From an uncultured Bacteroidota bacterium (GTDB taxonomy: Bacteria > Bacteroidota > Bacteroidia > JABEUT01): a stretch of DNA of 43,315 nt. The translations under genes were made by a program, and so were the position numbers. Positions 3,590-39,515 of this stretch are shown here, in pieces. The stretch covers positions 1 through 43,315 of the forward strand of contig CAIWVW010000033.1 of assembly GCA_903916255.1 (NCBI GenBank), given 5' to 3'. A model generated the notes under the pieces. It saw only the letters and a list, made by a program, of their open reading frames with translations. It had not been told where the DNA came from and did no database searches. Each line of letters opens with the position of its first letter. Within the stretch, counting starts at the first letter, position 1.

Positions 3590-3666
3590 CGTCATTGCGA
3601 GGAACGAAGCAATCTCTGCAATAACATTAATTAAAAGAGATTGCTTCGCAAAGCCTCGCAATGACG
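3590..3666. repeat. Dispersed hairpin repeat, copy 1 (arms facing outward)
   Basis: A near-palindrome: the left arm starts CGTCATTGCGAGG and continues to GAAGCAATCTC, and the right arm is its reverse complement, ending CCTCGCAATGACG. It lies between ugd and the decarboxylase gene. Related copies occur at 25402-25461, 28582-28666, 37357-37452 and 39401-39515. Confidence 0.85.
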
Positions 3667-26312: not shown

Positions 26313-27437
26313 TTATGGATGACTTAACTCACAAAACCAAAATCCCTCGGTTTTCGCACCCGAATTTGCTTTAATTTCCAATGGGCGGTATATTTTTTCT
26401 TTCACTACTACATTAATGGGCTTATTAAATATAGGCCCATTGAAACAAAAAGTATGGAATTCACCGTTTTCCCCGCATGGGTCAATAGTTGAAGGCAGGT
26501 TACTTATGAAATCCGAATCAAATAATGCGCCTACTTCGTTCTTCCCTAAATAGGCATCATTGGTGCAACAAAGTATGGTTTGAAAACCTTGGGCAATAAA
26601 GTCGTTTGCCAGTTGTTTTGTATCCATTTTCCACAACGGATAAACTCCTGTCATTCCCGCTTTTGCAAGGTTATTGTCGCGGTAAGCCCGTAAATCTTCC
26701 AGAAATATATCACCAAAAATAACATACGCTACCCCTGTTGATTTTTGTCCCAGTAAAAAGTCTTCCATTTTCTGCTCATATTCCTCATTGCTTCCTTCTT
26801 TAACATACATTTTAAAAAGCGGCAACCCAATGCTTGCAGCTTGCTCTTCTACCAGTTCTTCCCGCACCCCATGCATAGATACCCGCTTAAAGTTTTCATT
26901 CACGGTAGTAAATAAAGCAGTTACCTCATATTCCTTTTCAAGCAATACTTTATTCAGGGCAAAAGACGAATCTTTACCTCCACTCCAGCAGAAGATGGCC
27001 TTTTTTCGTTCCACCCTCTCCTCGCAGGAGGGGGCAGGGGGAGGCCTCTCAATGTAGCTACCGACTTTTTCAAGCGCTGTATCCAAATCCGATAAAACTT
27101 CCTCATTGGTAAATCTTAAAACGGTTAGCCCTTGTTCCTTTAGTACGCTCTCTCGTATTTTATCGCGTTTTCTTACCTCGTCCACCTCAAGCACATCCCC
27201 ATCCAGTTCAATGACAAGTTTTGCCTCATTACAATAAAATTCTGCAATAAAATTCGCAATCGGGTATTGTCTTCTGAATTTAAAACCACCTGCTTTACCA
27301 TTACTAATTACTTCCCAAAACAAAGTTTCTGCATGGGTGCTTTTCCTTCTTAGCTTTCGGGTTATATTAAAGGTTTCCCATTTAGAACCGTAATAAAAAG
27401 CGGCTTTACTTTTTTTGTTGTCAGATTTTCCTAGCAT
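26313..27437 (-). CDS. DUF559 nuclease-like domain fused to Dph6/DUF71 ATP-pyrophosphatase
   Basis: A 374-residue fusion. Residues about 25-128 are a DUF559 (Vsr/PD-(D/E)XK-like) domain: THAETLFWEVI, GFKFRRQYPIANFIAEFYC, LVIELDGDVL, VLRFTNEEVL. Residues 145-374 are a Dph6-type enzyme: the PP-loop SGGKDS at 152-157, MHGVREELVEEQA, GDIFLEDLRAYRD and DPCGENGEFHTF at 319-330. Diphthamide does not occur in bacteria, so the ligase part has some other amide-forming substrate. The linker RPPPAPSCEERV is the translation of a short palindromic repeat, and a related palindrome lies just upstream of the ATG. A GTG at 27014 could start a free-standing Dph6 protein. The fusion is clear in sequence; its benefit is unknown. 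Confidence 0.88.
   Translation of the reverse strand: MLGKSDNKKSKAAFYYGSKWETFNITRKLRRKSTHAETLFWEVISNGKAGGFKFRRQYPIANFIAEFYCNEAKLVIELDGDVLEVDEVRKRDKIRESVLKEQGLTVLRFTNEEVLSDLDTALEKVGSYIERPPPAPSCEERVERKKAIFCWSGGKDSSFALNKVLLEKEYEVTALFTTVNENFKRVSMHGVREELVEEQAASIGLPLFKMYVKEGSNEEYEQKMEDFLLGQKSTGVAYVIFGDIFLEDLRAYRDNNLAKAGMTGVYPLWKMDTKQLANDFIAQGFQTILCCTNDAYLGKNEVGALFDSDFISNLPSTIDPCGENGEFHTFCFNGPIFNKPINVVVKEKIYRPLEIKANSGAKTEGFWFCELSHP
27011..27050. repeat. Palindromic repeat forming the DUF559-Dph6 linker
   Basis: CACCCTCTCCTCGCAGGAG followed by a G-rich run, inside the coding region. It resembles 27469-27505 (CACC[CT]TCTCCTnnnAGGAG in both). Confidence 0.7.
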
Positions 27438-27468
27438 AGTGAGCGTGCTAATATACTATATAAACAGA

Positions 27469-27505
27469 CCTCACCCCACCTTCTCCTATGAGGAGAAGAG
27501 AAAAG
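27469..27505. repeat. Palindromic repeat upstream of the DUF559 start
   Basis: CTTCTCCTATGAGGAGAAG (27480-27498) is a palindromic stem preceded by CCTCACCCCAC. It lies about 40 bp before the fusion gene's ATG, so the DUF559 part sits between two related palindromes. Confidence 0.7.
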
Positions 27506-27544
27506 TCATGACCTTGTTACGCTTTCCTACTAAGAGAGAAATTT

Positions 27545-28581: not shown

Positions 28582-28666
28582 CGTCATGACGAGGCTCCGC
28601 AAAGCCATTTTACCACAAAAAGGACACCAATTGGGTGAGACTGCTTCGCGGAGCCTCGCAGTGACG
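28582..28666. repeat. Dispersed hairpin repeat, copy 3 (arms facing outward)
   Basis: The left arm starts CGTCATGACGAGGCTCCGC. The right arm, ending GAGCCTCGCAGTGACG, is its approximate reverse complement. It lies between divergently transcribed genes. Confidence 0.82.
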
Positions 28667-37356: not shown

Positions 37357-37452
37357 TAAGATTGCCTTGTTCCTCCCAACGGCGTATTTCCGCTCTGTAT
37401 GCTACTTTATTAATCTACAACGTCATTGCGAGGCTCCGCGAAGCAATCTTAC
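37357..37452. repeat. Dispersed hairpin repeat, copy 4 (arms facing inward)
   Basis: A diverged arm (GTAAGATTGCCTTGTTCCTC) precedes a clean one (CGTCATTGCGAGGCTCCGC to GCAATCTTA). The arm order is the reverse of copies 1 and 3. Confidence 0.7.
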
Positions 37453-39400: not shown

Positions 39401-39515
39401 GAGATTGCTTCGTTCTTCGCAATCACGGTCGTACACTTAATTGTAAGGGTTCAAAATTTTGAACCCCTACACGGAACGATAACACGTCATTGCGAGGCTC
39501 GGCGAAGCAATCTCT
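39401..39515. repeat. Dispersed hairpin repeat, copy 5 (arms facing inward) enclosing a second palindrome
   Basis: Arm 39401-39431 (GAGATTGCTTCGTTCTTCGC) and arm 39485-39515 (CGTCATTGCGAGGCTCGGC) are inverted with respect to each other, in the same order as copy 4. Between them is the perfect palindrome at 39447-39466. Confidence 0.8.
39447..39466. repeat. Perfect 20-bp palindrome
   Basis: GGGTTCAAAA followed directly by its complement TTTTGAACCC, with flanks GTAA and CTAC. It may act as a weak hairpin terminator after the isoaspartyl peptidase gene. Confidence 0.75.

Follow-up and report, generated by a model that had tools for sequence, protein, structure and literature searches.

DUF559 nucleases and the short palindromes that bracket their genes probably make up an autonomous mobile unit, in which the nuclease works with its own palindromes and would itself catalyse the movement. 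One lineage of these units lies inside the reading frames of conserved genes, apparently a previously undescribed kind of mobile element able to live inside proteins. The wider proposition that such elements are widespread and autonomous, with DUF559 mobilising its own tagged palindromes, one lineage residing unspliced and in frame in essential proteins, and solo palindromes being non-autonomous copies, seems to us evenly poised between right and wrong. The case examined here comes from the window, a 43,315-nucleotide stretch of DNA from an uncultured Bacteroidota bacterium, in which a DUF559 unit is joined to a gene for a Dph6-type enzyme. The features concerned are listed below, with the source of each assignment in brackets.

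26313..27437, minus strand: whole fused open reading frame, 374 aa (list of open reading frames)
27366..27437, minus strand: ATG start (27435-27437) and N-terminal leader of the DUF559 part (list of open reading frames, structure models)
27060..27365, minus strand: DUF559 (PF04480) nuclease-fold domain (Pfam match, genome search, fold match, residue comparison)
26391..27002, minus strand: Dph6-type diphthamide synthase domain (PF01902), the host gene (Pfam match, congeneric orthologues without DUF559)
27012..27014, minus strand: possible in-frame GTG start of the Dph6 part (sequence)
27014..27034, no strand: inner palindrome CCCTCTCCT-cgc-AGGAGGGGG, downstream end of the unit (sequence, translation)
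27037..27044, minus strand: tag of the inner palindrome, CCTCCCCC as read on the minus strand, toward the DUF559 gene (sequence)
27480..27498, no strand: outer palindrome CTTCTCCT-atg-AGGAGAAG, upstream end of the unit in gene orientation (sequence, pattern search)
27469..27477, plus strand: tag of the outer palindrome, CCTCACCCC, toward the DUF559 gene (sequence; same tag at the palindromes of other DUF559 loci)

DUF559 (PF04480) matches residues 25-126 of the 374-residue frame (E 1e-28), and its profile score of 99.7 bits against a cut-off of 20.6 places the domain in the family. Diphthami_syn_2 (PF01902) matches residues 146-349 (E 3e-37) and, with the SGGKDS loop in the same frame, identifies the host part as Dph6. 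DUF559 and Dph6 in the window form a true in-frame fusion. Model confidence is high for the DUF559 domain (pLDDT 86) and low for its N-terminal leader, and the model of the whole fusion comprises two folded domains and a disordered linker at residues 133-139 (pLDDT <50) that falls within the palindrome-encoded linker.

Two related palindromes bracket the DUF559 part, as the first-pass annotation had claimed, one at 27014-27034 (CCCTCTCCTcgcAGGAGGGGG, one mismatch; its tag at 27037-27044 is given as GGGGGAGG) and one at 27480-27498 (CTTCTCCTatgAGGAGAAG). The two have opposite orientations, each tag pointing inward to the DUF559 gene, and the unit spans ~485 bp. The same annotation correctly read the inner palindrome as linker, since it is translated as part of RPPPAPSCEERV between DUF559 and Dph6, and an in-frame GTG at 27012-27014 offers the Dph6 part the possible start of its own that had been pointed out. 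Palindrome counts across this genome (G000) come from search tools: CTCCTNNNAGGAG is found at only five places in 3.74 Mb, two of which flank the window DUF559, and a third (L007) holds the same extended palindrome, solo, after another gene. Allowing for as many as 3 mismatches, the window has 12 matches to CTCTCCTNNNAGGAGA, where 3.6 would be expected. Chance does not account for these palindromes.

Beyond the window, hairpins beside DUF559 genes were surveyed at 148 loci without using the palindrome sequence, a hairpin being a perfect stem of at least 8 with a loop of 3-8 no more than 250 bp from the gene, and control windows were taken further out in the same loci. Such hairpins occur in 119/288 DUF559 flanks and 16/826 control windows (odds ratio 36; the surveyed loci are related to each other, and the counts are therefore not independent). 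Both fused genes (75/194 flanks against 9/563 controls) and free genes (44/94 against 7/263) contribute, and 11 loci from outside Bacteroidota, namely Alpha-, Beta- and Gammaproteobacteria, Cyanobacteria and Deinococcus and including the region of a Neisseria DUF559 gene, give 12/22 flanks against 4/44 controls. At about half of the loci that could be measured, a strict hairpin is missing from both sides, although some of these loci have shorter or imperfect ones. The control windows rule out chance palindromes, and matching palindromes at unrelated DUF559 loci, which the first-pass annotation had proposed as a check, stand far above them. Family searches of 60 related genomes found DUF559 in 36 of them, with 84 matches in all, of which ~25 lie in long open frames, and a further scan gave 80 named DUF559 loci, nearly all in Bacteroidota, among which the fused share is inflated by the use of embedded copies as the query. 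At the Neisseria locus (L222, 2000-2700), the DUF559 gene has next to it a tandem array of palindromes that repeats every 281 bp. A free-type DUF559 protein (L065, C-terminal 192 aa) runs on into in-frame repeats in tandem, IPLTPFFKGEEQEVTL..., which look like an array of its own palindrome in translation.

Palindrome type goes with nuclease lineage. Palindromes with CTCTCT stems accompany 8/8 clade A nucleases and 1/77 others (p 2e-10), and the palindromes of a third DUF559 clade differ in stem and tag. In the DUF559 tree, most embedded copies group in a lineage separate from a mostly free clade (SH-aLRT 97), and host genes are intermixed in that tree: RecB inserts nest among LeuRS inserts, and a LeuRS insert (L110) pairs with one in IcmF (L130). 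Palindrome number also tracks DUF559 number across the 60 genomes (rho 0.60), and DUF559 is present in 17/18 genomes with at least five palindromes, where the counts are lower bounds that miss other palindrome classes, the covariance model R1 having only 5 base pairs and being in effect mostly sequence scoring. Solo palindromes likewise occur in frame (L192, L198, L200, L202), in one case (L200) at a phosphatase site where congeners carry the nuclease, and they look like non-autonomous derivatives of the DUF559 element. One genome (G016) has 17 CCTCACC-tagged palindromes and no detected DUF559 match; the nuclease may have been lost there or another enzyme used, and more generally, in this genome and at solo palindromes, the nuclease could be missing or could work in trans.

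Unoccupied sites mark out the unit. The Dph6 orthologues of eight congeners, 63-74% identical, all lack DUF559 and, that of G002 excepted, start close to M..KAIFCWSGGKDS, and the window fusion is therefore recent. An ancestral DUF559-Dph6 fusion is ruled out by the same comparison (0/8), which had been put forward as a check. The proposal of the first-pass annotation that a palindrome-bounded nuclease unit inserted at the dph6 5' end is thus supported by empty sites, congeneric Dph6 and matching palindromes. At the corresponding Dph6 junction, the nearest relative (G002) carries a short palindrome-like linker, TPTQSLGERV, and a leader, MQKMEVERKDKKSSGESYYKSTEFTPTQSLGERV, that weakly resembles that of the window; these are perhaps a nuclease remnant before Dph6, a reading that is only suggestive. 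The sole other DUF559 gene of the window's genome (L001) is palindrome-bracketed as well, with palindromes of a different family (ACTCACCCC tag, CTCTCT stem). Here the GNAT and LysC genes are split by TACTCACCCC...DUF559...GGGGTGAGTA, and these genes lie 0-5 nt apart or overlap in four congeners (G003, G007, G008, G009), with a solo palindrome between them in G001. At the spot of this DUF559 gene, the GNAT-lysC gap of G002 (L170) holds another inverted repeat (GGAACGCGGATAACGCGGAT ... GCGTTATCCGCGTTCC), so that within the genus a single intergenic position has acquired three different repeats. An exact empty site is seen in a pair of RecG genes (L106 and L228), which are 86% identical without gaps over 651 and 639 bp on the two sides; between the matched sides lie 440 nt in one and 8 nt in the other, and the extra DNA runs from GCCTCCCC to GGGGCT, that is, from palindrome to palindrome. 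No target-site duplication was defined at the units.

Roughly 100 DUF559 units are embedded in frame in conserved genes, again from palindrome to palindrome. By NCBIfam assignment, the hosts include the tRNA synthetases LeuRS (at two sites), IleRS, MetRS and ValRS, along with RecG, MetH (at several sites), RecJ, UvrA, HisD, MazG, acetyl-CoA ligase, IcmF, a DEXH helicase, RdgB, a RecB-like helicase and an aminotransferase; SpoIIE-type phosphatases, HsdR and a CaiB-like enzyme were recognised by eye. The inserts, ~140-180 codons long, are fully made up of DUF559 and palindrome-derived linkers, which form their ends in translation (e.g., SPSPLERVGE, LPFGEDLGG). Insertion sites fall between neighbouring residues of solved structures, at 236/243 in LeuRS (1h3n), 533/541 in IleRS (8c8w) and 516/519 in RecG (1gm5), positions that we read as surface loops. 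Fused frames are also found in the single-contig genomes G085, G289, G157 and G252, which rules out an assembly artefact. An IleRS (L137) and a DegT-type aminotransferase (L153) combine a DUF559 insert with further nuclease-free palindrome-like linkers in the same frame.

The embedded nucleases retain their catalytic residues and are under constraint. The catalytic core is intact in 47/47 free copies and in 96/98 fused copies other than that of the window, and dN/dS of embedded DUF559 is 0.06-0.18 in most close pairs, somewhat above that of the host, which indicates strong purifying selection. At least one recent move is shown by two divergent phosphatase (PP2C) paralogues of a single genome (L041 and L042 in G017), where silent identity is 0.91 in the insert against 0.44 in the host and the insert identity stops just past the terminal palindrome. 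Most same-site pairs otherwise reflect vertical descent rather than exchange. The window domain matches 3hrl, a gonococcal protein of DUF559 kind and the closest solved structure (Z 15.2), the homing endonuclease I-Bth0305I (3r3p; Z 11.5 over 91 residues) and Vsr (Z 9.9).

The window copy departs from this pattern. Its DUF559 lacks the full catalytic core (E, D, E-x-D, H), which is needed for activity rather than for family membership: residue comparison finds D changed to E, H to L and RRQH to RRQY, and no other copy lacks the VDF aspartate together with the DGxxH histidine. By these changes, the nuclease has decayed and is probably catalytically dead. With its stop lost and its nuclease decayed, the window copy is an end point and not an active element. 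The earlier suggestion that the nuclease promotes its own spread is plausible for the class, given the cognate palindromes, homing-endonuclease fold, purifying selection and recent moves, but probably does not extend to the window's own copy.

The comparisons above establish a bounded unit, empty sites, the agreement of palindrome with nuclease, constraint on the nuclease and at least one recent move. In the mechanism that we propose, each unit consists of a DUF559 nuclease gene between two short tagged palindromes of a family specific to the nuclease lineage, and inserts as a whole, from palindrome to palindrome. Units of the free type bring their own start and stop, and the one lineage with neither sits in frame in surface loops of conserved housekeeping proteins, where selection on the host gene would keep the frame open, express the nuclease and so preserve the embedded copy. 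We infer that the nuclease, of the Vsr / I-Bth0305I fold, starts the move by acting on the palindrome, recognising the cognate sequence and making a break or nick there; host repair would then copy the unit, or the palindrome alone, into a new site. Loss of the nuclease would leave palindromes behind. In the window itself, events would have begun when a free-type unit landed at the dph6 5' end; its stop codon would then have been lost, and the nuclease would have decayed while the frame stayed open.

Other explanations distribute the roles of nuclease and palindrome differently. DUF559 could be a homing endonuclease that cuts sites in the host genes (the LeuRS loop, the RecG loop, the PP2C site), with repair copying the unit in and the palindromes being merely tolerated ends, in-frame linkers or expression signals. 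The same sites are indeed occupied across families (29 loci at LeuRS site s1, 10 in IleRS, 8 in RecG), the PP2C paralogues share their site, the silent codons of a RecJ pair are more alike in the insert than in the host (0.80 against 0.58) and the fold matches I-Bth0305I; but related nucleases sit in many unrelated genes, as the RecB inserts within the LeuRS group and the L110-L130 pair illustrate, the sites have no obvious common sequence, and palindrome family goes with nuclease clade, which makes this account unlikely, if a serious contender. That DUF559 is mere cargo, an ordinary small nuclease gene for Vsr-like repair or defence lying between palindromes that another enzyme mobilises, we regard as decidedly unlikely. 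It would suit the abundance of solo palindromes, in frame ones included, the genomes that have palindromes but no DUF559 match, and the role of a DUF559 protein, Caulobacter VsrA, which is linked to DNA damage in the absence of a cytosine methyltransferase (PMC12907096). Against it stand the agreement of nuclease clade with palindrome type, the lack of a second conserved gene within the units and the near-constant presence of DUF559 in palindrome-rich genomes.

A functional domain fusion, in which DUF559 joined Dph6, LeuRS, RecG and others because the nuclease aids the host protein, would explain the purifying selection on embedded copies, yet it is highly improbable in view of patchy occurrence within genera (RecG is occupied in 3 of ~59 genes within one genus, Dph6 in 0/8 congeners), a host range of some 20 unrelated proteins, the presence of palindromes at the insert edges and a window nuclease that is probably dead. 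A self-splicing intein or intron carrying a homing endonuclease, to which the intein-like position in conserved genes might point, is more improbable again: there was no intein or Hint family among the NCBIfam matches listed for 19 fused proteins and no Rfam match to a group I or II intron at the inserts of 7 loci, and the inserts are fully accounted for.

An autonomous unit of nuclease and palindromes shares features with several known systems. REP/RAYT systems also have short palindromes with a fixed unpaired tag, often in inverted pairs, and an enzyme gene flanked by cognate palindromes with solo copies elsewhere (PMC3733652), and here too palindrome type tracks the clade of the flanked enzyme. 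The enzyme there, however, is an HUH tyrosine transposase rather than a DUF559 protein of Vsr / homing-endonuclease fold; the tags are GTAG or CGTC rather than CCTCACC, ACTCACC or GGGGTGTG (those of the window are CCTCACC or CCTCCCC, that of L001 is ACTCACC); and the units described here sit in frame inside genes. Rickettsia palindromic elements, repeats of 105-146 bp reviewed as non-autonomous, are likewise translated in frame in conserved protein genes (PMC2229807), as are the fused loci and the solo in-frame palindromes. Unlike those elements, which have no enzyme gene, DUF559 units encode a nuclease and span much of Bacteroidota as well as other phyla. EDxHD homing endonucleases provide the closest characterised nuclease fold (I-Bth0305I), and free-standing homing endonuclease genes resemble the units in spreading into conserved genes with some same-site exchange (RecJ, PP2C); in contrast, DUF559 units have no intron or intein, have palindrome ends and occupy many unrelated sites. 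DUF559 belongs to the same family as the Vsr / YcjD-type PD-(D/E)XK nucleases, and the YcjD profile finds Vsr (PMC1189080), but the roles known for that group are mismatch repair (Vsr) or putative nuclease. Titles and abstracts of open-access papers naming DUF559 give no sign of palindromes or mobility, and the open-access papers searched on DUF559, YcjD and in-frame insertions, most of them assessed by title and abstract, describe no such element.

If correct, this reading would supply a candidate function and partner DNA for a large family of unknown function that spans several bacterial phyla and includes E. coli YcjD, and would connect orphan palindromic repeats of one class with a candidate enzyme. 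A dedicated transposase is said to be lacking for some REP families, the CGTC family among them (PMC3733652), and the same logic of matching palindromes to a neighbouring nuclease could be applied to these families. The loops of LeuRS, IleRS and RecG moreover offer natural insertions of a folded nuclease domain that are kept under selection.

CGTC-type REPs were considered as partners of DUF559 and rejected, none lying within 500 bp of DUF559 loci except at L119, where a partial CGTC-type match lies 305 bp upstream. The window itself contains CGTCATTGCGAG repeats, at 3590-3666, 28582-28666, 37421-37432 and 39485-39496, which fit the CGTC REP family. Allowing up to 2 mismatches, CGTCATTGCGAG has nine matches in the window against 1.9 expected, and two of the sites are inverted pairs ~75 bp across.
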